Shown here piece by piece: positions 511 through 13,353 of a stretch of 13,452 nt of DNA (positions are counted from its first letter, which is position 1; each line of letters starts with the position of its first letter). Made by a program: the position numbers and the translations under genes. The notes beneath the pieces were generated by a model that saw nothing but the letters and a program-made list of their open reading frames with translations, ran no database searches and was not told the origin of the DNA. The stretch comes from an uncultured delta proteobacterium (GTDB lineage: Bacteria > RBG-13-61-14 > DRUE01), in assembly GCA_903930515.1 (NCBI GenBank), contig CAIYYW010000261.1, forward strand, positions 1 through 13,452, in the 5' to 3' direction.

Positions 511-1413
511 TCAATAGATCAATTTGTTGAGCGGATATTCAATAATCCCTCCGGCGCCGGCTTTTTTCAACAACGGGATCAATTCCCTCACCACCCGTTC
601 TTCCACAATCACTTCCAGACTGTACCAGCCCCGGTCCGACAGTTGAGACAAAGTGGGCGTGTGCAGCGCGGGCAGGATTCCGATCACCTGCTTCAAGCCT
701 TTTTCCGGAACATTCATCTTGAGACCAACCCTCCCGGCCGCGGCCAGCGCGCCTTTCAGCATCATCGCGATGATTTCTATTTTCTCCCGCTTCCAGGGGT
801 TGGTTTCCCAGACCTGGCGATTGGCGATCAGGACGGTTTCGCTCTCCATTACGGTGTCCACGATTCGGAGGTTATTCGCCTTCAAGGAGCTTCCGGATTC
901 AGTGACTTCAATGATCGCGTCCGCGGAAATACCGGCCTTGGCCTCGGTGGCTCCCCAGGAGAATGTCACTTCCGCCTTGACCCGGTTCCGGGCCAGATAT
1001 TTTTTTGCCAGGTGGACCGCTTCGGTCGCGATCCGCTTTCCCTTTAAATCTTTCGGGCTTTTGATTTTGGAATTAGCCGGGACCGCCACCACCCATCTGA
1101 CTTTCCGGAAGCCGGTTTTGGAATAAGTGAGCGCGCACACTTCTTTCACCCGGGCGCCTTGCTCAATCACCCAGTCCCTTCCGGTCAGGCCGCAATCCAG
1201 GGGCCCGTCTTGAACGCTCAAGGCCATTTCCTGCGCCCGGAGCATCAACACCTGCAGGTCCGGGTCGTCAATGCCGGGGAACAATTCCCGGCTTTCCCCT
1301 TTGATCTTCCAGCCGGCTCGGGCAAATAGGGAGAGGGTGTTTTCCTCCAGCGACCCCTTGGGCAGGCCGATCATAAGTATTTTTTTCCGGTTATGTAAAT
1401 TTTTCCTGGGCAT
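511..1413 (-). CDS. hisG: ATP phosphoribosyltransferase HisG, long form
   Basis: This enzyme catalyses the first step of histidine biosynthesis, condensing ATP with PRPP in the cytoplasm. With the start used here it has 300 residues, the size of the long, self-regulated form, so no HisZ partner is expected. The N-terminus has IGLPKGSLEE (15-24), followed by LTGRDWVIEQG (76-86). The PRPP-binding segment ADAIIEVTESGSSLKANNL is at 164-182. A C-terminal ACT-like regulatory domain (about 220-300) contains LPALHTPTLSQL and ends in a segment typical of the family. Start choice: ATG 1413 follows AAGGAG, although the spacing is only 3 bases, with a second GGAGG further up. It overlaps the methyltransferase gene by 23 bases. 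An ATG at 1443 would extend the protein and one at 1374 would shorten it to begin at MIGLPKG. No other his gene is visible; the upstream neighbours are glycan genes. Confidence 0.95.
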   Translation of the reverse strand: MPRKNLHNRKKILMIGLPKGSLEENTLSLFARAGWKIKGESRELFPGIDDPDLQVLMLRAQEMALSVQDGPLDCGLTGRDWVIEQGARVKEVCALTYSKTGFRKVRWVVAVPANSKIKSPKDLKGKRIATEAVHLAKKYLARNRVKAEVTFSWGATEAKAGISADAIIEVTESGSSLKANNLRIVDTVMESETVLIANRQVWETNPWKREKIEIIAMMLKGALAAAGRVGLKMNVPEKGLKQVIGILPALHTPTLSQLSDRGWYSLEVIVEERVVRELIPLLKKAGAGGIIEYPLNKLIY

Positions 1414-2128
1414 TGGCTCCTTTTCCCTCCGGTTTCCAAGCATAAAAGATCATACTCTTCGGGCAAATATAATCAAAAAGTTTTTCCAGCTTGAACATTC
1501 TGGGCGAATAAAAGGTCTGGACCAGCGCCCAGCGGTAGGCCTTGGCCACCGGATGGTTCTCGTTCTCCAGGCCGAAAATACACCGGAGCGTCCAGTACGC
1601 GGAATGATAGCCGTGCGCAAACCGGAGGGCATAGACCTGGAGGCCGGCCCTCTGGATTTTTTCCGAGAGCTCCCGGGGCAGGAATTTCCGGATATGTCCG
1701 CCGGGGTTGGTGAAATAGAGCGGGCTGAGCTTGTCATAAACATATTCGGTGAAATAGGTCGGGGTGGTGACCGCGATCCTTCCTCTCGGCTTCAGGATCC
1801 GCGCCAGTTCCCGGAGCACTTTGGTATCCTGCCAGGTGTGTTCCACCACTTCCGAGCAGATGATCCGGTCGAAATAATTGTCCGCGAACGGCAAATTATG
1901 CACATCCCCGGTCAGGGTCTGCCATTTGCCTCCTTTGGCCTTGTCCTTCTCCTCCGCGGCCGCCAGGCTGTACATCACCTTTTTCACTTCCTCCGCACTG
2001 TAGTCCAGGCCGTAAACATCCATTCCCCGGCGGAAGGCTTCAAAGCAATGCCTTCCGGCTCCGCAGCCGGCGTCCAAAATTTTCTGGCCCGGCTTTACGG
2101 AAAGCAGATCATAATTAGCGGTCAGCAT
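1391..2128 (-). CDS. class I SAM-dependent methyltransferase
   Basis: This 245-residue cytosolic protein has a Rossmann-type methyltransferase fold. Visible motifs are the SAM-binding glycine loop LDAGCGAGRH (18-27), the acidic post-I segment YGLDYS (39-44), GDVHNLPF (74-81), FDRIICSEVVEH (86-97) and ILKPRGRIAVTTP (111-123). The fold and cofactor are clear; the substrate is not. The C-terminal half (about 125-235) is rich in aromatic residues and carries no substrate-specific signature I recognise. Its ATG at 2128 overlaps the end of the upstream glycosyltransferase gene by 14 bases, with GGGG six bases before the start. Its end overlaps hisG. This tight packing after gpgS and two glycosyltransferases suggests that it methylates a sugar hydroxyl of the glycan they build, by analogy with methylglucose polysaccharides; that is inference. 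It could instead modify a lipid or quinone. Confidence 0.88.
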   Translation of the reverse strand: MLTANYDLLSVKPGQKILDAGCGAGRHCFEAFRRGMDVYGLDYSAEEVKKVMYSLAAAEEKDKAKGGKWQTLTGDVHNLPFADNYFDRIICSEVVEHTWQDTKVLRELARILKPRGRIAVTTPTYFTEYVYDKLSPLYFTNPGGHIRKFLPRELSEKIQRAGLQVYALRFAHGYHSAYWTLRCIFGLENENHPVAKAYRWALVQTFYSPRMFKLEKLFDYICPKSMIFYAWKPEGKGANAQEKFT

Positions 2129-3365
2129 TTTTGCCCCGCGAGATCAATTCCTGATATACCTGCTCGGTAACCCGCGCGCATTCCGCCCAGGTGAAAAGGT
2201 TCCTGACCCTTTCCGCGGCATTGGCTCCCATTTTTTTCCTAAGCTCTCCGCGTTCCAGCAGGAACAGTATTTTATCGCGCAGGGCCGCGGAATTTTTGGC
2301 TGGGACTAAAACCCCGGCTCCGTCTCCGCCCACCACTTCCGGGAGCGCGCCCGCGTCCGAGCTGACCACCGGGGTGGCGCAGGCCATGGCTTCCGCCGCG
2401 GGCAGCCCGAAACCTTCATAGAGGCTGGGCACCACGCCGACTTCAGCGCGGCAATATTCCAACGCCAGATCCTCGGGAGACAACCTTTCCTTGACCGTGA
2501 TCCGTTTCCTGACCTGGTATCGGTCCATCAGTTGGTTGAGATAAAATTTCCATTTTGCCCCTCCGTCAACCACCACCAGGCTGACCCGGTCCGGCAGTTG
2601 CGCCAGGGCCTGGACCAGATAGAGAATCCCTTTTTTCCGGTCTTCGGTGTTGCCGACAAAAATCAATCTGCCGGGGACGCGCTGGATTTCCGGCCTGGGA
2701 TAAAACACCGTCTCGTCCACGCCGTCATAAACCACCCGCATTTTGTTCCGGTCGATATCAAACGCCTGTTGCACCGCGTTCGCCGAATCCTGGGAACCGC
2801 TGATCACCATCTCCATTTGCCTGGCCACGATCTTCTGCATCACAAACGGGTAGAACGCCACCCTCCGCGCCCGCTCGACAAAGGTATGGCTTTGGACAAA
2901 GTCCGCGCCCCGGTCCATCGCCAGGGGATGATGGATGGACGCCATCACCGGCACTCCGTAGCCCTTGATCAGGATCTGTCCGTATCCCAGACATTGGTTG
3001 TCGTGGATCAAGTCAAAGCTGTCTCCGGCTCGGAACAGTTCGGCCAGTTTAAGGAACGCTCTGATGGAATAGGTGAACATTTCCGGAAAAAACCATAAGC
3101 GAGTGAGGGCGAACTCGTAGAAATTGATCGGGCTGAAAGTCTTGAGCAAACTCGCCTGGTCATAGTTGGCGAGCCCCTGCGCGTAGTAGCAGTGGTTGGT
3201 GATCCTGACCACTTTTGCCCAGGGCATCTCCCAGGGATAGGGGGGGCCGGACAGAACGGTGATCCGGTGTCCCCTCCGGGCCAGCTCGCGTGTCAGGTAA
3301 TAAAGATAGATCCCCTGGCCCCCGCTGTACATATTGCCCCGGTAGCTGAGGAAGCAAATTTTCAT
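2115..3365 (-). CDS. GT4-family glycosyltransferase (second of a paralogous pair)
   Basis: This 416-residue GT-B fold retaining glycosyltransferase opens with ICFLSYRGNMYSGGQGIYLYYL (read across 3-24, interrupted here only by my numbering), whose GGQG is the N-terminal nucleotide-sugar loop. Other landmarks are IHHPL (144-148), VVYDGVDETVF (211-221), LIFVGNTEDRKKGI (234-247) and VVPSLYEGFGLPAAEAMA (311-328). E317 and E325 form the E-x7-E motif of GT4 enzymes, which binds the donor nucleotide-sugar. No signal peptide or membrane helix is evident. The frame stays open upstream to 3671, but homology to the paralogue at 3622-4908 begins exactly at ATG 3365, two bases after the stop of the small membrane protein gene (TAAGGATG), indicating coupled translation. 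Donor and acceptor are unknown. The gpgS context suggests that it extends a glucosylglycerate-type primer. Confidence 0.92.
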   Translation of the reverse strand: MKICFLSYRGNMYSGGQGIYLYYLTRELARRGHRITVLSGPPYPWEMPWAKVVRITNHCYYAQGLANYDQASLLKTFSPINFYEFALTRLWFFPEMFTYSIRAFLKLAELFRAGDSFDLIHDNQCLGYGQILIKGYGVPVMASIHHPLAMDRGADFVQSHTFVERARRVAFYPFVMQKIVARQMEMVISGSQDSANAVQQAFDIDRNKMRVVYDGVDETVFYPRPEIQRVPGRLIFVGNTEDRKKGILYLVQALAQLPDRVSLVVVDGGAKWKFYLNQLMDRYQVRKRITVKERLSPEDLALEYCRAEVGVVPSLYEGFGLPAAEAMACATPVVSSDAGALPEVVGGDGAGVLVPAKNSAALRDKILFLLERGELRKKMGANAAERVRNLFTWAECARVTEQVYQELISRGKNADR

Positions 3366-3367
3366 CC

Positions 3368-3592
3368 TTATTTCTTCTCTTCTTCCTTTTCCTCCGGCGC
3401 TGGAGGAACCACCTTGATTGAGAAGATGGTCCAGCCGATCCAGAAGCCAAGCCCGAGCACTCCCATGGTAAAAATCACCACCGGGATCGCGAGGGCCAGG
3501 TAACTTCCAAAAAACACTCCGGCCACGAACAGGATCCCCACGATCACGATCCCGATGCAGATTAAGAGTCCGTAAAGCCTGCTTTTCTCCAT
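3368..3592 (-). CDS. small two-helix membrane protein, unknown function
   Basis: I do not recognise a family for this 74-residue protein. It has a short charged start (MEKSRLYG) and a first hydrophobic segment at about 9-28 (LLICIGIVIVGILFVAGVFF). A second hydrophobic segment at about 33-58 includes IPVVIFTMGVLGLGFWIGW. A proline- and glutamate-rich charged tail (VPPAPEEKEEEKK) closes it. This predicts two membrane helices in a hairpin with the charged tail probably cytosolic. The ATG at 3592 has a good GGGGAG ribosome-binding site four bases upstream. It sits between the two glycosyltransferase genes, 29 bases after one and 2 bases before the other, so it is almost certainly co-translated with them. 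It could be a membrane anchor or partner for the soluble glycosyltransferases; that is inference from position only. Confidence 0.8.
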   Translation of the reverse strand: MEKSRLYGLLICIGIVIVGILFVAGVFFGSYLALAIPVVIFTMGVLGLGFWIGWTIFSIKVVPPAPEEKEEEKK

Positions 3593-3621
3593 TGGTCTCC
3601 CCTTTTTGGCTTAAGATAGTA

Positions 3622-4908
3622 TCATATCTTAGCCCGGTTGTATTTTTTATCACCAATCCTTTTCGCCGCAATCAGTTCCTGATATAAAGCCACCATATTC
3701 TTCGCCGCGGTTTCCCAACTGAACAATTCCAGCACCCGCTTCCGTCCGTTTTCCGCCAGCCGGTTCCGCAATTCCGTATTTTCCAGCAAAAGGTTGACGG
3801 CCTTGGCCAAAGCCCGGACCTCCTGCTTGGGCACGATCAATCCGGTCTCGCCGTGTTTGCCCACCACCTCGGGCAAGGCCCCTCCGTCCGAAGAAACCAC
3901 CGGAATCCCGCAGGCCATTGCTTCCGCGGGCGGGAACCCGAACCCCTCATAAACGCTGGGCACGACGCATACCTCCGATTCCTGGTATGCGCGGGCGACT
4001 TCTTCGGTGGGAATTTTCCCGGTGGTCCTGACCCGATCTCCCAGGTTATATCTCCGTAAAAGCTCCCCCATAACAAAATGCCGAGGCGCCCCTCCGTCAA
4101 CCACCAACAGGGTGACATCTTTCGGCAGATAGAGCATCGCCTCCAGCAAATATCGGATCCCCTTTTTCCGGTCCTCGGTGTTGCCCACGAAAATCAACTG
4201 CCGTTTCTTTTTCGCAACCCCGGGGTCGGGCTTGAAAATCTCCGTGTCCACCCCGTTGTAAACCACCGCCACTTTTTCCCGCGGCAAATGGTAGGCCTCG
4301 GCCACGCTTTGCCCCGCGATTTTAGACACGGTAACGATTTTTTCCAGACGCGGCGCCACCAGCCGGTGCATCAGGAGCGGATAGTAAACCGCCCTCCGCA
4401 AGCGGTGGTTGAAGCCGGGGAGCTGCTGAAAATCCGCGCGCTGATCCTCGCTTAAAGGATGATGGATGGTGGTGAGCATCGGAGAGGGAAAACTGAACTG
4501 GGCCAATAACATTCCGAACCCGAGGGTCTGGTTGTCGTGGATAATGTCAAAGGGCTGCTCGCGCCAGAGCCGGGCCAGCCTTTGGTAAGCGCGCAAGCTG
4601 AACATAAGCATTTCCGGGAAAAAGCCCAGCCGGGTGGCGATGAATTCGTAAAATTGGCCCGGAGAGAACAGCCGGAGCAGGTGGTCCGGTCCGGGCAGGT
4701 TCCGGTAGAAAAATTTCTTGGTGGCGAACAAGTTGTAATTGGGGATCAGGTGTTGGCGGCACCAGGGGGTGTCCCAGGTGTAGGGAGGCCCCTGGATCAA
4801 CTCCACCTGATGTCCGAGCCGGGACAGGTATTTGGACAGGTAATAGACATATACCCCCTGCCCTCCGCAATACATATTACCCCGATAGCTTAAGAGACAG
4901 ATGCGCAT
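3622..4908 (-). CDS. GT4-family glycosyltransferase (first of a paralogous pair)
   Basis: This 428-residue GT-B glycosyltransferase is closely related to the one at 2115-3365. Shared landmarks are the start ICLLSYRGNMYCGGQGVY (3-20), PPYTWDTPW (41-49), IIHDNQTLGFG (122-132), IHHPL (148-152), YNGVDTEIF (217-225), LIFVGNTEDRKKGI (238-251) and VVPSVYEGFGFPPAEAMA (315-332). E321 and E329 form the GT4 E-x7-E donor-binding motif. The ATG at 4908 is 20 bases after the gpgS stop. Its ribosome-binding site is weak, so it probably depends on coupling to gpgS. The protein looks soluble. Known GT4 enzymes use NDP-sugars and retain the anomeric configuration; here the sugar and acceptor cannot be read from sequence. 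Its place directly after gpgS makes it the best candidate for adding the next sugar to the GpgS product, as inference. Confidence 0.93.
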   Translation of the reverse strand: MRICLLSYRGNMYCGGQGVYVYYLSKYLSRLGHQVELIQGPPYTWDTPWCRQHLIPNYNLFATKKFFYRNLPGPDHLLRLFSPGQFYEFIATRLGFFPEMLMFSLRAYQRLARLWREQPFDIIHDNQTLGFGMLLAQFSFPSPMLTTIHHPLSEDQRADFQQLPGFNHRLRRAVYYPLLMHRLVAPRLEKIVTVSKIAGQSVAEAYHLPREKVAVVYNGVDTEIFKPDPGVAKKKRQLIFVGNTEDRKKGIRYLLEAMLYLPKDVTLLVVDGGAPRHFVMGELLRRYNLGDRVRTTGKIPTEEVARAYQESEVCVVPSVYEGFGFPPAEAMACGIPVVSSDGGALPEVVGKHGETGLIVPKQEVRALAKAVNLLLENTELRNRLAENGRKRVLELFSWETAAKNMVALYQELIAAKRIGDKKYNRAKI

Positions 4909-4928
4909 GGCAAATTCAGTCCAGGCCC

Positions 4929-5939
4929 TCAGATCAGATTTTCGTCCGCTAAACTTTCCCGCGGTTCTCCGATCCCGTATTTCAGGCGCTTAATTCGGTA
5001 TTCTTCTATTTCCCGCATCGGGGGGCGTTCGTGGATTTGGACCCTTTCTTCCTTGAGCGAATAAAAATCGGGTCCCGTTTCCAGTTTTTGGTAGGTGCGG
5101 TTAAGCTCTTCGGCCAGGTCCATCAATCCCAGGTCTTCCGCCCTTTTCAAAAAGGCGTGCAAAATCTCAAAACCCATTTTGCCCAGGGCGCTTGCCGGCT
5201 GGTTGCGATGGATTCTGAGGTTGAGGTCGGTCTGGGCCATCACTTCCCTCCCGAACCGGGTGTAAATATCAATCAACATCCCGGTCTCGATCCCGTACCC
5301 GCAGGGAAAAGGAAGGTGGTCGAACAATTCCCGTCTTCCGGCGCATTCTCCCGAGCAAGGCTGGTAAAAACGGGCCAGGTCCGGAAAGAACAGGCTCAGG
5401 AGCGGCCTGACCAGGATCTCGGTGACTCTCCCTCCCCCGTACTCGTTCTCTTCTCCGGGAATCTGGAGCGGCCTCTGGTAAAAAGCCTTGACGAAAAGCA
5501 ACTGGTCAAATTTAAGCAGCGGCCCCACCAGTCCGTAAACAAACTTCGGATCCATATTCTTGATGTCCGCGTCCAGCCAGACAATCAGGTCCCCGTCCAA
5601 AACACTCAAGCTCTTCCACAGGTTCTCCCCCTTGCCCGGGAAATGACCCAGCTCCGGCAAAATTTCCGCGCATTTAAAGACCCGGGCGCCTGCTTCAAGG
5701 GACGCCTCGCGGGTGCGGTCGGTTGACCCGGAATCTATCACCACGATCTCGTCCAGCAATGGGCAGCGGTCATAAAGCTCGGCCTTGATGATCCCGATCG
5801 CTTTCCCGATGGTGGCTTCCTCGTTCAGGGCAGGGAAAGCCAAGCTGATTTTGAGATCCTTTTGGGTCTTGATCTCAACCAGCTCCTCCAGGTTGGAAAA
5901 CTCGTTATGATGAAAGGTATGGCTCTTAATCCAGTTCAG
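4929..5939 (-). CDS. gpgS: glucosyl-3-phosphoglycerate synthase (GT81), probable CTG start
   Basis: GpgS transfers glucose from an NDP-glucose donor to 3-phosphoglycerate, giving glucosyl-3-phosphoglycerate, the precursor of glucosylglycerate. The GT-A core shows LAFPALNEEATIG (33-45), VVIDSGSTDRT (66-76), the metal-binding DAD (123-125) within VWLDADIKN, FYQRPL (153-158), GGGRVTE (168-174), CGYGIETG (213-220) and LRIHRNQP (241-248). The acidic and histidine positions correspond to the catalytic Glu and metal-binding His known in mycobacterial GpgS. The conserved N-terminal segment, including SHTFHHNEF, is encoded upstream of the first TTG (5843). The frame from its upstream stop to that TTG has no ATG, GTG or TTG. 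A CTG at 5939 with GAGG five bases before it gives 336 residues, close to the roughly 324 of mycobacterial GpgS. ATT at 5930 is an alternative. No GpgP phosphatase is present in the window. Confidence 0.93.
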   Translation of the reverse strand: MNWIKSHTFHHNEFSNLEELVEIKTQKDLKISLAFPALNEEATIGKAIGIIKAELYDRCPLLDEIVVIDSGSTDRTREASLEAGARVFKCAEILPELGHFPGKGENLWKSLSVLDGDLIVWLDADIKNMDPKFVYGLVGPLLKFDQLLFVKAFYQRPLQIPGEENEYGGGRVTEILVRPLLSLFFPDLARFYQPCSGECAGRRELFDHLPFPCGYGIETGMLIDIYTRFGREVMAQTDLNLRIHRNQPASALGKMGFEILHAFLKRAEDLGLMDLAEELNRTYQKLETGPDFYSLKEERVQIHERPPMREIEEYRIKRLKYGIGEPRESLADENLI

Positions 5940-5957: not shown

Positions 5958-5986
5958 CTTTTACCAGAGCCGGGCCGGTTTGTCAA
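5958..5986 (-). promoter_or_regulatory. sigma70-type promoter of the gpgS operon
   Basis: On the minus strand a perfect -35 box TTGACA (5981-5986) is followed by a 17-base spacer and TAAAAG (5958-5963, four of six matches to the -10 consensus). Transcription would begin near 5951, leaving about 12 bases of leader that include only the GAGG ribosome-binding site and the A run before the CTG start. This is the only clear promoter seen for the seven-gene minus-strand operon. Confidence 0.6.
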
Positions 5987-7022: not shown

Positions 7023-8348
7023 TCAGACAAGTTTGGTGAAGTCAATGTCAAAGATAAGCGGGTCGGCCGGGGCGACCAGGTTCCGCTCGGCCCCGGTTTG
7101 GGGATGGGCCAGGTCTATTTCCTGGGTATCGGAGAGTTTTTTCCCGGAGGGGTCGTAGATGATCCGGACCTTGGGATGGAGCGGGGTCTGGCTGTTGACC
7201 TCGATCACCATCCCGACTTCCCCGCTATCAAGCCGGACCAGGCTCCCGACCGGATAGATCCCGAGCATCCGGACGAACTGCTGGAAATAAACCGGATCAA
7301 TCACCTTCCCGGACAGGGCTTCCATAATCTTGATCGCGTCCCGGGGATGGAAAGGCTTCTGGTAGGGACGGAGCGTGGTCACCGCGTCATAGACATCGGC
7401 GATGGCGATGATCTTGGAATAGGGATGAATCTGGTACCCGTCTTCCAGGGTCGGGTAGCCGGTCCGGTCGTACCGCGCGTGATGCTCGTAAACCAGCCGG
7501 ACGCACAACTCGCCCACGCCCGGCATTTTCTGCAGGATCTCCGCGCTCTTGACCGGATGCTCTTTCATTACCTCCCATTCTTCCGGGGTGAGGTCGTTTG
7601 GTTTGAGGATGATGTTTTTGGGGGTGAGGATTTTTCCCAGATCGTGCAACAGGCCGGCCAGGCCGATCTGATGGAGGTCGGCTTTGGGAGTTTTCAGCGA
7701 TTCGGCCAGAGCCAGGCTCAGCACGCTGACATTGACCGAATGGTTAAACAGGTAATTGTCATAGCTCTTGAGCAGGGTGAGCGCGAGCAAGGCCGGACGG
7801 TATGAGAGCACATAACCGGTCAGGTCTTCAACCGCTTTCTTCGCGCTTTCAATCTTGGGTATTTTCCCCATCCGCACTTCGGTAAACATCTCGGAAACCG
7901 TGTCGAGCGCCCGGTTGTAAACCTCCCGAACATCCCGAACCTTGATATGATCTATCCCTTTCTCCAAAAGCCAGGCGCTGGCCCCTTTTTCCCGGATCGC
8001 TTCCGCGTCCCCCAGCAAAAACTGCGACCAGGACTGAAGCTCTTGCGCTTCCAAACCCTGGTAAAATTCCACCGCGGTCATTCCCCGTTCTTCAATCCGG
8101 CGCTGAAAATCCCGCACCGCGATATTGGGCTGGTAAAAGGGCACCCCCTCAAAAACCAGAACCTCTTCAAGGATGGCCAAAGAAAGTTTTTCCCGGCCCT
8201 CGAGCAAGGCCTGGATTTCCGAAAACATCTTCTGGACCTGGCTTTTCACCACCGGATGATCGGGCGGGTAGAGGGTAAGGTTGCGGCTGCCCGCGATCAT
8301 CGCGATGATGATTTGCTCCAGCTTCTCCTTGACAATGCCCCCCGCCAT
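7023..8348 (-). CDS. HD-GYP domain protein, probable cyclic-di-GMP phosphodiesterase
   Basis: With the start at ATG 8348 this protein has 441 residues. The N-terminal region (about 17-111) contains LTLYPPDHP (24-32) and resembles the N-terminus of the protein encoded just upstream. A linker of helical character follows. The HD-GYP domain (about 200-365) keeps the expected metal ligands: H203, the HD pair in LLHDLGK (H235, D236), H264, H289-H290 and D318 in IADVYDA. The GYP signature is at 297-299, although the usual DGxGYP reads DRTGYP. A C-terminal extension (366-441, starting YPVGSLVRL) is common after HD-GYP domains. Members hydrolyse cyclic di-GMP. The open frame continues upstream to 8570, but that stretch lies over the HEAT gene and is not protein-like. 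ATG 8348 is two bases after that gene's stop and has GGGG six bases before it. There is no receiver domain, so the input signal probably enters through the N-terminal domain. Confidence 0.92.
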   Translation of the reverse strand: MAGGIVKEKLEQIIIAMIAGSRNLTLYPPDHPVVKSQVQKMFSEIQALLEGREKLSLAILEEVLVFEGVPFYQPNIAVRDFQRRIEERGMTAVEFYQGLEAQELQSWSQFLLGDAEAIREKGASAWLLEKGIDHIKVRDVREVYNRALDTVSEMFTEVRMGKIPKIESAKKAVEDLTGYVLSYRPALLALTLLKSYDNYLFNHSVNVSVLSLALAESLKTPKADLHQIGLAGLLHDLGKILTPKNIILKPNDLTPEEWEVMKEHPVKSAEILQKMPGVGELCVRLVYEHHARYDRTGYPTLEDGYQIHPYSKIIAIADVYDAVTTLRPYQKPFHPRDAIKIMEALSGKVIDPVYFQQFVRMLGIYPVGSLVRLDSGEVGMVIEVNSQTPLHPKVRIIYDPSGKKLSDTQEIDLAHPQTGAERNLVAPADPLIFDIDFTKLV

Positions 8349-8350
8349 CT

Positions 8351-9913
8351 TTAACCCCGGGCGCCTTTCCGCGATCGCATCTGCTTCAACAACTCCTTGC
8401 AATATTGCGCCACAATGCCCTGGCCCGCGGAGATTTCCTCCAGCAATCTTTCGGCGCGCTCCCCGCCGATCCGCGAGAGCGCCTCCGCGGACTTGATCTG
8501 CAATTTCTCCGGCGCCGGCCTCCGAAAGAGCAGGGGATTTTTCAATACCCCGGCCAACGCCGATAAACACTCGCGGGATCCGATCCGGCCGAGCGCTTCC
8601 GCGGCTTTCTCCCGGATTTCCGGATCCTCCCGACGATTTTTCACAAGCGCGATCAAGCTGGGAACCGCCATAATTTCCGCCATCTCGGACAGGGTCTGGA
8701 TCAGCAGCAGCTTGGTCTCGGAATCCAAATTCTTCTCCCGGAGCAACGCCGTCAGTTCCAGGCTCGCTTTCTTGCTTTTAATTTTCCCCAAAGCCCGGAT
8801 CGCCTCCCGCCGGACATCCGGGGCGGAATCAACCAAGAGCTCGAGCAGCAGGTTCGCACTTTCCGGCGACCGGAACTCTCCCAGCAGATAGATCAGTTTG
8901 AGGTTGGGGGAACCCTTCCGGCCTCCCAGGCCGGCCTGGATCATCGGCTGCAACAGCCCCCCCTTCTTCCTTAGATAGTTGATCAATTCCTTCTGAAAAT
9001 ACATTGACTCCGGAGCTGACAGCCGCTCCAGCATAACCTTGAGCGCCGGCTCTCCCACCTGGTCAAAGTAGCGGATGAAAGCCTGCCCCGAATCCTCGTC
9101 GCTGTAAATGAAATTGTTCACCAGCCAGGATAAAAAATTCGGCCCGCCGAACCGTTTGAGGAGCGCTTGCGATTGGGGCCCGGCCAACTCAAAGCCCTTG
9201 CCTTTTTGCTCGAAAAAATCACTAAGCGCCCCGATCAGGAACCATTGTTCCGGCAATCGGTTCCGACCGGAGAGTTGTTCTATTTCCTTTTCAATTTTTC
9301 CAATGATCTCTTTGGCCTCATGGTCTCCCCCGGCCGAATCCAAATCCAGGATCAGGGAGTTGAGATATGCAAACCCTTGTTCCTGCTCCGCTTCTTCCTT
9401 TTCCTGCTCCGCTTCTTCTTCCTTGCCGGCCTGTCCGATAAAAAGCTTCCCAAAGTCCACCTCATTGACCCAGAGGGACCGGATCCGCTTCTGCCGAAAA
9501 TAGTTTTCAATCTTCTTCCCGCCCCGGAATTCCTCGGCCGGGATCAAAAGCATTTCCAGGAAATCCGTAAATTCTCTCAACTCAACGGTTTTGCGAAACG
9601 CGAACTTCCGGACCTGCCGGATATGGAGTTCGGAAGTCAGTTGGGAAAGCGCCGGCAGATTTACTTCCAGGATTTTGTCCTGATAGAAAAGCCCTTCCCG
9701 TCCCACGACGAAAATGATCTCGCCCTGTTTATTAATTTCAGAAAGGATTTTGTCAAAGCACAGTCTAAGGCTGGACTTGAGTTGGGGATGCCCGACCGGG
9801 TACAGCTCAAAAGCCCGGAAGGCCCTGGCCAGCTCCAGGGCGACCATCTGGATATTTTGGCTGACCGCCTCTTTGGCTTTGCCGGGACTCTGATCGGATT
9901 TATTCAAGGCCAT
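8351..9913 (-). CDS. HEAT-repeat protein with an N-terminal domain shared with its HD-GYP neighbour
   Basis: This 520-residue soluble protein has three parts. Residues about 20-125 form a domain with FELYPVGHP (35-43) that lines up without gaps with the start of the downstream HD-GYP protein. A charged linker (164-179) carries two tandem seven-residue units, EEAEQEK and EEAEQEQ. The C-terminal region (about 335-510) consists of HEAT/PBS-lyase-type helical repeats such as DVRREAIRALGKI (366-378) and EIREKAAEALGRIG (432-445), which usually serve as protein-binding scaffolds. No catalytic motif is seen. The start at ATG 9913 lacks a good ribosome-binding site, but a strong promoter sits so close that the message would be nearly leaderless. 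The gene is the first of a two-gene operon with the HD-GYP gene two bases downstream, so the products probably act together. Confidence 0.88.
   Translation of the reverse strand: MALNKSDQSPGKAKEAVSQNIQMVALELARAFRAFELYPVGHPQLKSSLRLCFDKILSEINKQGEIIFVVGREGLFYQDKILEVNLPALSQLTSELHIRQVRKFAFRKTVELREFTDFLEMLLIPAEEFRGGKKIENYFRQKRIRSLWVNEVDFGKLFIGQAGKEEEAEQEKEEAEQEQGFAYLNSLILDLDSAGGDHEAKEIIGKIEKEIEQLSGRNRLPEQWFLIGALSDFFEQKGKGFELAGPQSQALLKRFGGPNFLSWLVNNFIYSDEDSGQAFIRYFDQVGEPALKVMLERLSAPESMYFQKELINYLRKKGGLLQPMIQAGLGGRKGSPNLKLIYLLGEFRSPESANLLLELLVDSAPDVRREAIRALGKIKSKKASLELTALLREKNLDSETKLLLIQTLSEMAEIMAVPSLIALVKNRREDPEIREKAAEALGRIGSRECLSALAGVLKNPLLFRRPAPEKLQIKSAEALSRIGGERAERLLEEISAGQGIVAQYCKELLKQMRSRKGARG
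9380..9421 (-). repeat. 21-base tandem repeat within the HEAT gene
   Basis: Two adjacent 21-base units are identical over their first 18 bases on the plus strand. They encode the in-frame seven-residue pair EEAEQEK/EEAEQEQ in the charged linker between the N-terminal domain and the rest of the protein. As the length is a multiple of three, gain or loss of units would change linker length without a frameshift. Confidence 0.8.
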
Positions 9914-10056: not shown

Positions 10057-13000
10057 ATGCGCAGAATGATCTACCTCTATTTCCTCTTTTCCGGATTCTG
10101 CGCGCTGATCTACGAAATCCTCTGGACCCGGCTGTTCGTGTTGGTGATGGGCGGAACGGTTTATTCCTTCACCACGGTGCTGGTGGCGTTTATGTCCGGG
10201 CTGGCCCTGGGCGGCTGGCTGGGGGGCAGATACGCGGACCGGATCAAGTTAAGCCCGCTGCTGGCTTACGGGATCCTGGAGGGCCTGATCGGTTTTTACT
10301 GCCTGTTGATCCCCTATTTGATCCTGGCGCTCAACCCGGTTTTCAACTGGCTCTATCCCTTTTTGTTCAGCCATCATATTTCCGGGCTGCTGGTCCGGTT
10401 TTCCTGCTCCGCATTGATCCTGCTCATTCCCACCACCCTGATGGGAGCGACCCTGCCGATTTTGGTCCGGTATCAATATCAGGACCAAGAGGGATTGGGC
10501 AAGACCACCGGGATGCTTTACGCCATCAACACCTTGGGGGCGGTGGCCGGGAGTTTCTTCTCCGGGATGGTTTTGATCCCCAGCCTGGGACTGAGACACA
10601 CCCTGTATTTTGCCGCGGCGATCAACCTGGTTATTTCCGCATCCATCCTGGTTTTGCGCAGGTACCGTTCCCAAGAATTTATTCCCCGCCGGACCGAACT
10701 GGTCTCAACCGAACTTCCGGCCGGGCAGAGTTTTCGCTCGACCCTGGTCCTGGCCGGATATGCTTTGAGCGGAGCCGTGGCTATGATCTATCAGGTGGCC
10801 TGGACCAGGGCTTTGATTTTAAGTCTGGGAACCACCCTCTATGTATTGAGTTTGATTTTGACCGCTTATATCGCGGGGTTGGCGGTCGGGGCCTTGACGA
10901 TCACTCCGCTGGCGGACCGGGTGAAGCGCTTATGGCTCTGGATCGGGTTGATGGAACTGGGGATCGGCATTTCCGCCTGGGCGGTGGTGCCGATGCTGGC
11001 GCGGCTGCCGGTCTGGATGGCGATGGCGCACCGGCCGAAAGAATACTGGTCCTGGCTGGGGATGGAATTCCTGATCGGGATGGCCCTGATCTTTCTCCCG
11101 ACTTTCCTGATGGGGATGCTTTTGCCCCTGGTGGTAAGGCTTTACGCCCAACTCCGGGGCGGGGTGGCCGAGGCGGTTGGGGAGGTTTATGCCTGGAACA
11201 CCCTCGGCGCGATCGCGGGGTCTTTTTTATGCGGATTCTTCCTGATCGGATGGCTCGGTCTGCGTGACAGCTTAACCCTGGCCTGTGGCCTCAGCCTCTT
11301 GATCGGGATCATATTTATCCTGGGGGAAAAGCTCCGGATGATAATCCGCGCTTCCGCGGCCGTCGCCGCGGTTATGGCGGGGTTGCTTTTTTTTCATTTC
11401 CAGCCCGGCTGGGAGCCTGAAATAATCAACAGCGGCCCTTATATCTATTTCAAGGATTCTTATACCCAGGCCGGAAAGGACCGCAACAAGATCGGCCAGG
11501 CCTTGAAAGCAAGCACCAAGATCCTTTTTCACAAGGAAGGCGTGGAAGCCACGGTCTCGGTATTTGAACTGCCGGGCGGGATCCTGGTGCTCAGGATCAA
11601 CGGAAAAACCGACGCCTCTTCCGAAGTGGATATGACCACTCAGGTTCTGACCGGACATCTGCCTCTCCTGTTCCATCCCAACCCGAAAAAATTGGCGGTG
11701 ATCGGACTGGCCAGCGGGGTGACCCTGGGGTCGGCGCTGACCCATCCGATTTCGGAGGCGACCTGCCTGGAGATTTCTCCGGAGGTGGTGGATGCCAGTT
11801 GGTATTTTAATTCGATCAACCAGAGGCCGCTGGAGGATCCGCGAACCCGATTGGTGATCAATGACGGCAGGTATCATCTGGAGCACACGCCGGATCATTA
11901 CGACGCGATTATTTCCGAGCCGAGCAACCCCTGGATCGGCGGGATGGGATTATTGTTTACCAGAGAATTCTTCGCCCAGGCCAAAACCCGTCTCAATCCC
12001 GGGGGAATCATGACGATCTGGATCGGGATTTACGATCTGGACCTGGACCAGGTCCGGATGCTCACCCGGACCTTCATTTCCGTGTTCCCGCAATCCACTC
12101 TCTGGGAATCCATTACCGGCGGAGATTACCTGCTGATGGGATTCAACGGAGATGTGGATTTGGATTATTCCCGGCTCAAGGAGCGTCTCCAGGACCCCGG
12201 GATCAGGAAGGACCTGGACCGGGTGGACCTGGAAACCCCGGAGAAAATCGTCTCCCGGTTAATGATGGGGCCGAGAGAACTCCAGGCCTTTTCCGACGGC
12301 GGCCCTTTGCATACCGACGACCGGCGGCAGATGGAATTGGAGGTTCCCAGAACCAAGTATCTCCAAACCTTCAAGGAGGAATTCAATTCGGTTATTAAGG
12401 CGTTTGACCGGAACCGGGCCGGGCTGGACCAGTATTTAGGATTCAGCAATCCCTCGGACCGCGCGGACCAGCCGGAGATTGACCGTTTTTACCAGGCCCA
12501 GAGCTGGATTTTGGCCGCGCATCTCGGCCTGAAGTCCAAGGAAAATGGCGACTATGTGATCCGGAACCTGCTCGCGGCCAACCGGATTGACCCGAGGAAT
12601 AAATGGGTCCGAGAAAATTTATATTTCGGTTATTATTTTAAGGGACAATATAATTTAAGGCAAAACAAGCTTTCCGACGCGGTGTCCAACCTGACCGAAG
12701 CCTGGCAATATAATCCCAAAGGCTCGGATATACCCACCCTGGCCGGTCTCTATTACTCGAACCTCGGCAAACCGGACCAGGCCGGCAAATGGATTGAGCA
12801 GGCTTTGAATGAAAACCAGAAAGACCCGATCGCGTGGATGGTCCGGGGGAAGCTGGAGTTGAGGCAGGGCCGTCCGGAGCTGGCGGTGGAATCTCTGGCG
12901 CGGGCCAAGCAATCCTGGCCGACCCTGGAAAAGAGCGGGGGTAATTCCTTGCTGGTGCGGACGATGTTGCGGTCCGGTCCGATGGATTTGAAGGCCGAGC

Positions 13001-13353
13001 TTTATTATGATTCCGGACTGGCGAATCAGGCATTGGGTAATTTTCAACCGGCCCTGTCGGATTTTGAGCAGACCCTCGCGATCTCCCCGACCTATTCGGC
13101 CGCGCTGCTGGAGCAGGGAAAAATCTTGCTGGGATTGGGCCGGATTGAGGAATCTCGGGAAAGGCTGACCCGCATGATCCAGGCCGCTCCCCGCAACGCG
13201 GATGCGCATTATTATCTCGGCCAGGCCTTGCGTCAAATGCCGGAGCAGAGCCAGGAAGCGCTTGCGGAATATCAGACTTATTTGCGTCTGGCCCCGGCGG
13301 ATTCTCCGGAGCGCCTAGCCGCGAAAAAAGCGATTTCCGAACTCAGCCGGTAG
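10057..13353 (+). CDS. fused MFS-like / spermidine-synthase-like membrane protein with TPR tail
   Basis: This 1098-residue protein has three parts. Residues about 5-445 are a polytopic membrane domain made of two repeated halves: SGFCALIYEILWTRLF (12-27) matches SGAVAMIYQVAWTRAL (238-253), and NTLGAVAGSFFSG (158-170) matches NTLGAIAGSFLCG (381-393). Residues about 490-700 resemble spermidine synthase, with a SAM-type loop VIGLASGVTLGSAL (548-561), CLEISPEVV (570-578), NDGR (602-605) and IISEPSNPWIGG (618-629), the last typical of MFS/spermidine-synthase fusions. Residues about 830-1090 are TPR-like helical repeats, for example ALSDFEQTLAISPTYSAALL (999-1018). The glycine-rich loop and active-site acids differ from true SpeE, so polyamine synthesis is unlikely and the substrate is unknown. 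No ribosome-binding site precedes ATG 10057; ATG 10066 is an alternative start. Confidence 0.9.
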   Translation: MRRMIYLYFLFSGFCALIYEILWTRLFVLVMGGTVYSFTTVLVAFMSGLALGGWLGGRYADRIKLSPLLAYGILEGLIGFYCLLIPYLILALNPVFNWLYPFLFSHHISGLLVRFSCSALILLIPTTLMGATLPILVRYQYQDQEGLGKTTGMLYAINTLGAVAGSFFSGMVLIPSLGLRHTLYFAAAINLVISASILVLRRYRSQEFIPRRTELVSTELPAGQSFRSTLVLAGYALSGAVAMIYQVAWTRALILSLGTTLYVLSLILTAYIAGLAVGALTITPLADRVKRLWLWIGLMELGIGISAWAVVPMLARLPVWMAMAHRPKEYWSWLGMEFLIGMALIFLPTFLMGMLLPLVVRLYAQLRGGVAEAVGEVYAWNTLGAIAGSFLCGFFLIGWLGLRDSLTLACGLSLLIGIIFILGEKLRMIIRASAAVAAVMAGLLFFHFQPGWEPEIINSGPYIYFKDSYTQAGKDRNKIGQALKASTKILFHKEGVEATVSVFELPGGILVLRINGKTDASSEVDMTTQVLTGHLPLLFHPNPKKLAVIGLASGVTLGSALTHPISEATCLEISPEVVDASWYFNSINQRPLEDPRTRLVINDGRYHLEHTPDHYDAIISEPSNPWIGGMGLLFTREFFAQAKTRLNPGGIMTIWIGIYDLDLDQVRMLTRTFISVFPQSTLWESITGGDYLLMGFNGDVDLDYSRLKERLQDPGIRKDLDRVDLETPEKIVSRLMMGPRELQAFSDGGPLHTDDRRQMELEVPRTKYLQTFKEEFNSVIKAFDRNRAGLDQYLGFSNPSDRADQPEIDRFYQAQSWILAAHLGLKSKENGDYVIRNLLAANRIDPRNKWVRENLYFGYYFKGQYNLRQNKLSDAVSNLTEAWQYNPKGSDIPTLAGLYYSNLGKPDQAGKWIEQALNENQKDPIAWMVRGKLELRQGRPELAVESLARAKQSWPTLEKSGGNSLLVRTMLRSGPMDLKAELYYDSGLANQALGNFQPALSDFEQTLAISPTYSAALLEQGKILLGLGRIEESRERLTRMIQAAPRNADAHYYLGQALRQMPEQSQEALAEYQTYLRLAPADSPERLAAKKAISELSR

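Follow-up and report, generated by a model that had tools for sequence, protein, structure and literature searches.

A conserved operon joining gpgS to ManT-like glycosyltransferase genes and a candidate route to a methylated polysaccharide in an uncultured bacterium

We analyzed a 13,452-nucleotide stretch of DNA from an uncultured delta proteobacterium of sediment (the window, contig 261 of a 3.65-Mb draft genome that is 93% complete), in which a run of minus-strand genes begins with gpgS, the gene for a predicted glucosyl-3-phosphoglycerate synthase. In transcription order, gpgS is followed by GT4a, tm74, GT4b and an S-adenosylmethionine (SAM) methyltransferase gene; the first four genes are spaced 20, 29 and 2 bases apart, and GT4b overlaps the methyltransferase gene by 14 bases (Table 1). 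Beyond the methyltransferase gene the same run goes on into hisG and then dnaE, of which hisG is probably not part of the operon's function. The gene order is conserved beyond chance, and the operon is real. We see about an even chance that it directs the synthesis of a methylated oligo- or polysaccharide, whose chain would be elongated and methylated as in the 3-O-methylmannose polysaccharide (MMP) and started from glucosylglycerate as in the methylglucose lipopolysaccharide (MGLP) of mycobacteria; the product, the sugar and the mode of priming are those we infer. Under this proposal the genes would serve one pathway, glucosylglycerate would be its primer, and the chain would become methylated.

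The comparison inside the phylum covers three genomes: that of the window (G000), one from the same genus (G001), and one from another family of the same order (G002). In G001 the order gpgS-GT4a-tm74-GT4b-methyltransferase-hisG-dnaE is intact, with protein identities of 77-84%. G002 keeps gpgS, GT4a, tm74 and GT4b together (53-64% identity), with rimO coming next. The coordinates and families bear out the original prediction that gpgS, two GT4 genes, a gene for a two-helix protein and a methyltransferase gene lie in a single minus-strand run.

The product of the first gene is predicted to be a glucosyl-3-phosphoglycerate synthase of family GT81 by a curated family cut-off, scoring 362.9 bits against the NCBIfam equivalog PRK13915, which is 100 bits above the cut-off of 262. 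It matches solved GpgS with an E-value of 9e-66, and in a full alignment with mycobacterial GpgS (7P5L/7PDO) the DxD (DAD/DSD), GGGRVTE and HRNQP/HRNRP acceptor-site stretches were matched. The gene starts at a rare CTG codon behind a GAGG motif, and at the aligned position its orthologues use TTG and ATG.

Both glycosyltransferases carry Pfam GT4 domains, and the best solved relative of each, over the full length, is ManT of Mycolicibacterium hassiacum (7QSG), the next solved relatives lying about 120 bits below. This ManT extends the alpha-1,4-linked chain of MMP (PMC9883506), and its catalytic glutamate pair (E313 and E321, EX7E), K240 and G15 are conserved in GT4a and GT4b. Mycobacterial ManT is represented in our Actinobacteria sample by genome G360 (729 bits to 7QSG, highly similar over the full length). 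At E<=1e-40, the mycobacterial genomes in the Actinobacteria search yielded ManT but no second, Rv3032-like match, so Rv3032, the MGLP elongation enzyme, is probably more distant. The operon GT4s thus appear ManT-like rather than Rv3032-like, with Rv3032 placed only through the Actinobacteria search and not by direct comparison. As a possible indicator of the sugar donor we considered the guanine-contact residue D293 of ManT, in place of which the window proteins have T and P; it was dropped because it varies even among actinobacterial ManT relatives, just 12 of 21 having D. A third ManT-like GT4 paralogue is present in G000 (L106, contig C13, 1498-2751, minus strand) and in G002 (L107, contig C39, 7530-8744, minus strand). 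The G000 copy comes immediately before a glycogen synthase-like (glgA) gene and overlaps it; a role in glycogen metabolism is therefore possible for one ManT-like branch.

The methyltransferase has a Pfam Methyltransf_11 domain and, with pMeT3 as its nearest match over the full length, belongs to the pMeT3 family, that is, to the MMP type. A 9.2-Mb actinobacterial genome (G246) has, downstream of a GT4 relative, a relative of the window methyltransferase and, after it, MmpH (recognized by its match to 7QSJ, E 4.6e-108); the GT4/methyltransferase junction is the same as in the window. Members of the family share invariant motifs outside the SAM site that are common to all lineages. pMeT3 itself is a putative 3-O-methyltransferase. 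A fold comparison of the methyltransferase model was not discriminating, as it returned many class I methyltransferases at Z ~20, natural-product sugar methyltransferases included. The tm74 protein has no Pfam or NCBIfam match and is 47-78% identical to copies in 13 other related modules. The expectation of a methylated-glycan operon therefore survives in part: the operon is conserved, and its families are tied to bacterial polymethylated polysaccharides, but the GT4s and the methyltransferase look MMP-type (ManT/pMeT3) and not, as had been supposed, MGLP-type.

At the thresholds used, 61 of the 395 Desulfobacterota genomes sampled encode ManT-like GT4s, as do 22 of the 149 from Actinobacteria. 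In a phylogenetic tree these proteins form a clade A, made up of Actinobacteria and Desulfobacterota, and a sister clade B (33 rows, Shimodaira-Hasegawa approximate likelihood ratio test [SH-aLRT] 100). Clade A holds mycobacterial ManT, and its GT4s are often linked to MmpH and MeT1 (the latter identified by 6G7D, E 5.8e-58); both GT4a and GT4b fall outside it, in clade B. There they form two sister groups of three (support 84), and the pair was thus probably born by duplication inside the window lineage. The methyltransferase tree divides likewise, the window enzyme falling into a clade B set of 17 rows (support 99), and the agreement of the two trees indicates that GT4 and methyltransferase travel together. 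Modules of clade B are also present in Desulfobacterota and in two other lineages (G034 and G088, whose phyla are represented in the sample by one and two genomes) without a true gpgS in the module. Two adjacent GT4s are found in the clade B modules of ten Desulfobacterota genomes, and where the upstream side is on the contig the order is methyltransferase 2-tm74-GT4-GT4-methyltransferase; G034, G088 and two further Desulfobacterota loci have a single GT4. MMP-type clusters comprising ManT, pMeT3, MmpH and a MeT1 relative of 6G7D also occur in Desulfobacterota (L207, L208, L209, L212), together with partial ones: in L211 MmpH is present and MeT1 was not seen, and L139 and L141 have MeT1 without MmpH. 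Two ATP-grasp (D-Ala-D-Ala ligase-like) genes precede methyltransferase 2 of the clade B module in L196, L198, L199, L200 and L201, most of which also have arginine decarboxylase-like and agmatinase-like genes upstream (named by eye).

The pathway we propose would begin with glucosylation of 3-phosphoglycerate by GpgS; the resulting glucosyl-3-phosphoglycerate, probably dephosphorylated by an unlinked phosphatase, would be the reducing-end primer. The two ManT-family GT4s would add hexoses to it, one perhaps starting the chain and the other extending it, with tm74 possibly holding them at the membrane, and the pMeT3-family methyltransferase would O-methylate the added sugars. The product would probably be alpha-linked and of the polymethylated-polysaccharide kind. 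GpgS is known to start MGLP in mycobacteria from gene knock-out (PMC2674218). MMP synthesis, for its part, draws on preformed oligomannosides released by MmpH, and mono- or dimannosides are not extended by ManT (PMC9883506). A search for MmpH gave no match at E<=0.001 in G000, G001 or G002, which are drafts 87-95% complete. Because ManT does not extend mono- or dimannosides and MmpH was not found in these three genomes, another source of chain starts is needed; gpgS would be a natural candidate, taking the place that MmpH-based recycling has in the MMP route. The original prediction had gone further, reading the lack of a GpgP gene as a sign that the primer might stay phosphorylated. This is unsupported: in M. 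tuberculosis, too, GpgP (Rv2419c) is encoded away from GpgS (Rv1208) (PMC4555173), so its absence from the operon is uninformative, and the window genome encodes two candidate histidine phosphatases with 30-32% identity to a GpgP candidate, a level that is not diagnostic. In an Aerophobetes locus (L072, 285-3044, plus strand), gpgS is directly followed by a gene for a histidine phosphatase, itself a GpgP candidate, and a glycosyltransferase gene.

Does gpgS belong to the module at all? Alternatively, the GT4-tm74-GT4-methyltransferase module could make a methylated glycan alone, with gpgS merely co-transcribed and making glucosylglycerate as a solute or for some other use, a scenario that we regard as unlikely. 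Several observations weigh against a glucosylglycerate-primed pathway, and the first three of them also favour this alternative. First, the link between gpgS and the module is known only from three genomes of one order. The GT4 pair is absent from all 78 loci at which gpgS was found outside the order (Spirochaetes, Aerophobetes, Desulfobacteraceae and Verrucomicrobia among them), some of which lie on short contigs, and when 49 outside-order gpgS genomes were searched whole, 45 had no ManT-like GT4 at E<=1e-60, while the other four had one at 36-37% identity. Many of these other loci have a peptidase-like gene upstream of gpgS, which the window does not. Second, clade B modules exist without gpgS: in Desulfobacterota, in G034, where gpgS and the module are on different contigs, and in G088, in whose genome no gpgS was detected. 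Third, a shared transcript is weak evidence of a shared function, because hisG and dnaE lie in the same run. Finally, the G002 orthologue of the methyltransferase (60% identity) is found on a separate contig, near hisG, so this gene is not tightly linked to the others; the methyltransferase can move, while the four-gene core is conserved.

That core speaks for a role of gpgS in the module. All three genomes of the order, from both families, keep gpgS linked to the GT4 pair, and gpgS-GT4a-tm74-GT4b stays together even though the downstream genes have been reshuffled. The co-occurrence of gpgS and the GT4 pair, put forward earlier as a check, therefore failed outside the order and was borne out within it. 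Furthermore, in five Desulfobacterota genomes the clade B methyltransferase gene faces, tail to tail, a divergent GT81-like gene (Table 1). The best family for the encoded proteins is GpgS, at 59-62 bits, and their best solved relatives are also GpgS (E 3e-9), with no Pfam match. On the other side of the balance, these genes fall far short of the GpgS cut-off, their convergent orientation relative to the module places them outside its operon, and in L199, L202 and L203 there is room for such a gene beside the clade B module and it is not there. Taken together, the order-wide link and the Desulfobacterota GT81-like genes are suggestive, though not proof, that gpgS belongs to the module.

Two further readings concern the product. 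GpgS and one further glycosyltransferase reportedly suffice in Petrotoga to make mannosylglucosylglycerate, and by this precedent the operon could make a short compatible solute of that sort, perhaps methylated. We find this improbable, since two GT4s, a membrane protein and a methyltransferase exceed the needs of such a solute, and the GT4s group with a chain-extending enzyme. A third possibility is that the module makes an exported methylated surface glycan or glycolipid. Surface-glycan loci commonly carry GT4 and methyltransferase genes, and tm74 is a conserved membrane protein; however, no flippase, polymerase, exporter or initiating phosphotransferase was seen in the window or in the genes that recur beside related modules, and the trees connect the genes to the cytoplasmic MMP system, leaving only a slight chance that the product is exported in this way.

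Returning to a glucosylglycerate-primed methylated polysaccharide, the operon resembles two known systems without matching either. Like the manT-pmeT3-mmpH-meT1 cluster for MMP in mycobacteria and Streptomyces (PMC9883506), it has a ManT-like GT4 gene abutting or overlapping a pMeT3-family methyltransferase gene, and the donor-site and catalytic residues are conserved in its GT4s. Unlike that cluster, it has two clade B GT4s, tm74 and gpgS, and lacks MmpH, in keeping with the search of the three genomes; MeT1 is also missing from the window, the genome as a whole not having been searched for it. The MGLP pathway of mycobacteria comprises GpgS, GpgP, Rv3032, Rv3030, Rv3031 and OctT. The likeness here is in GpgS as first enzyme, followed by a GT4 and a methyltransferase, and the differences are that the window GT4s are ManT-like and that gpgS and the elongation genes do not share an operon in mycobacteria. 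Neither a branching enzyme (Rv3031) nor an octanoyltransferase (OctT) is encoded in the operon or the window, the only places where we looked for them. The clade B modules of Desulfobacterota, G034 and G088 share with the window tm74, one or two clade B GT4s, the methyltransferase family and the GT4-methyltransferase order at the end, and differ by an additional methyltransferase upstream and by the lack of a true gpgS, some of them adjoining the divergent GT81-like gene. The Petrotoga system is alike in that GpgS is followed by a further glycosyltransferase and unlike in that its product is short and unmethylated.

Every enzyme of the operon comes from a known family. What we did not find described in open-licence papers is the joining of gpgS to clade B ManT/pMeT3 genes, the clade B module itself, and the complete MMP clusters outside Actinobacteria. 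We tentatively raise the possibility of a third kind of bacterial polymethylated polysaccharide, a hybrid with the glucosylglycerate reducing end of MGLP, a chain that tandem ManT-type enzymes build and a pMeT3-type enzyme methylates, as in MMP, and a small membrane protein in the machinery, occurring in uncultured bacteria far from Actinobacteria. Polymethylated polysaccharides, whose function is unsettled, have been described from mycobacteria and other Actinobacteria. Our findings suggest that such polymers also occur in very different bacteria. If so, modules in Desulfobacterota and a small candidate phylum, complete MMP clusters and a gpgS-linked form among them, would make these polymers independent of mycolic acids and of the fatty acid synthase I of mycobacteria, the context of the explanations offered so far. 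These modules also provide enzymes for in vitro tests of priming and methylation.

Table 1. Features of the window and GT81-like genes next to clade B modules in other genomes
Feature	Position	Strand	Length	Basis or remark
TTGACA hexamer	5981..5986	-		probable start of operon promoter; same hexamer and 17-nt spacer in same-genus genome
gpgS, predicted glucosyl-3-phosphoglycerate synthase (GT81), CTG start	4929..5939	-	336 aa	PRK13915 equivalog
GT4a, ManT-like glycosyltransferase, clade B	3622..4908	-	428 aa	7QSG E 2.6e-72; tree; EX7E and donor-site Lys/Gly
tm74, two-helix membrane protein	3368..3592	-	74 aa	conserved in clade B modules
GT4b, ManT-like glycosyltransferase, clade B	2115..3365	-	416 aa	7QSG E 1.3e-63; tree
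SAM methyltransferase, pMeT3 family	1391..2128	-	245 aa	42% identity to G246 relative; family motifs; tree
hisG	511..1413	-		Pfam HisG; likely start 1413 overlaps methyltransferase end
GT81-like gene beside clade B module	L195 2077-3267; L197 5220; L198 10218; L201 9574; L210 546	+; +; -; -; +	368-408 aa	

As read from the sequence, the TTGACA hexamer (5986-5981) is followed by a 17-nt spacer and a weak second hexamer and precedes gpgS at an equivalent position in the two genomes of the genus (L012 1700-1705 in the other); an automatic promoter scan did not list it. Elsewhere in the window, a 1098-aa protein with a membrane part, a spermidine synthase domain and TPR repeats is encoded at 10057-13353 on the plus strand, and genes for a HEAT-repeat protein and an HD-domain (HD-GYP-like) protein lie in overlapping reading frames at 7023-9913 on the minus strand.
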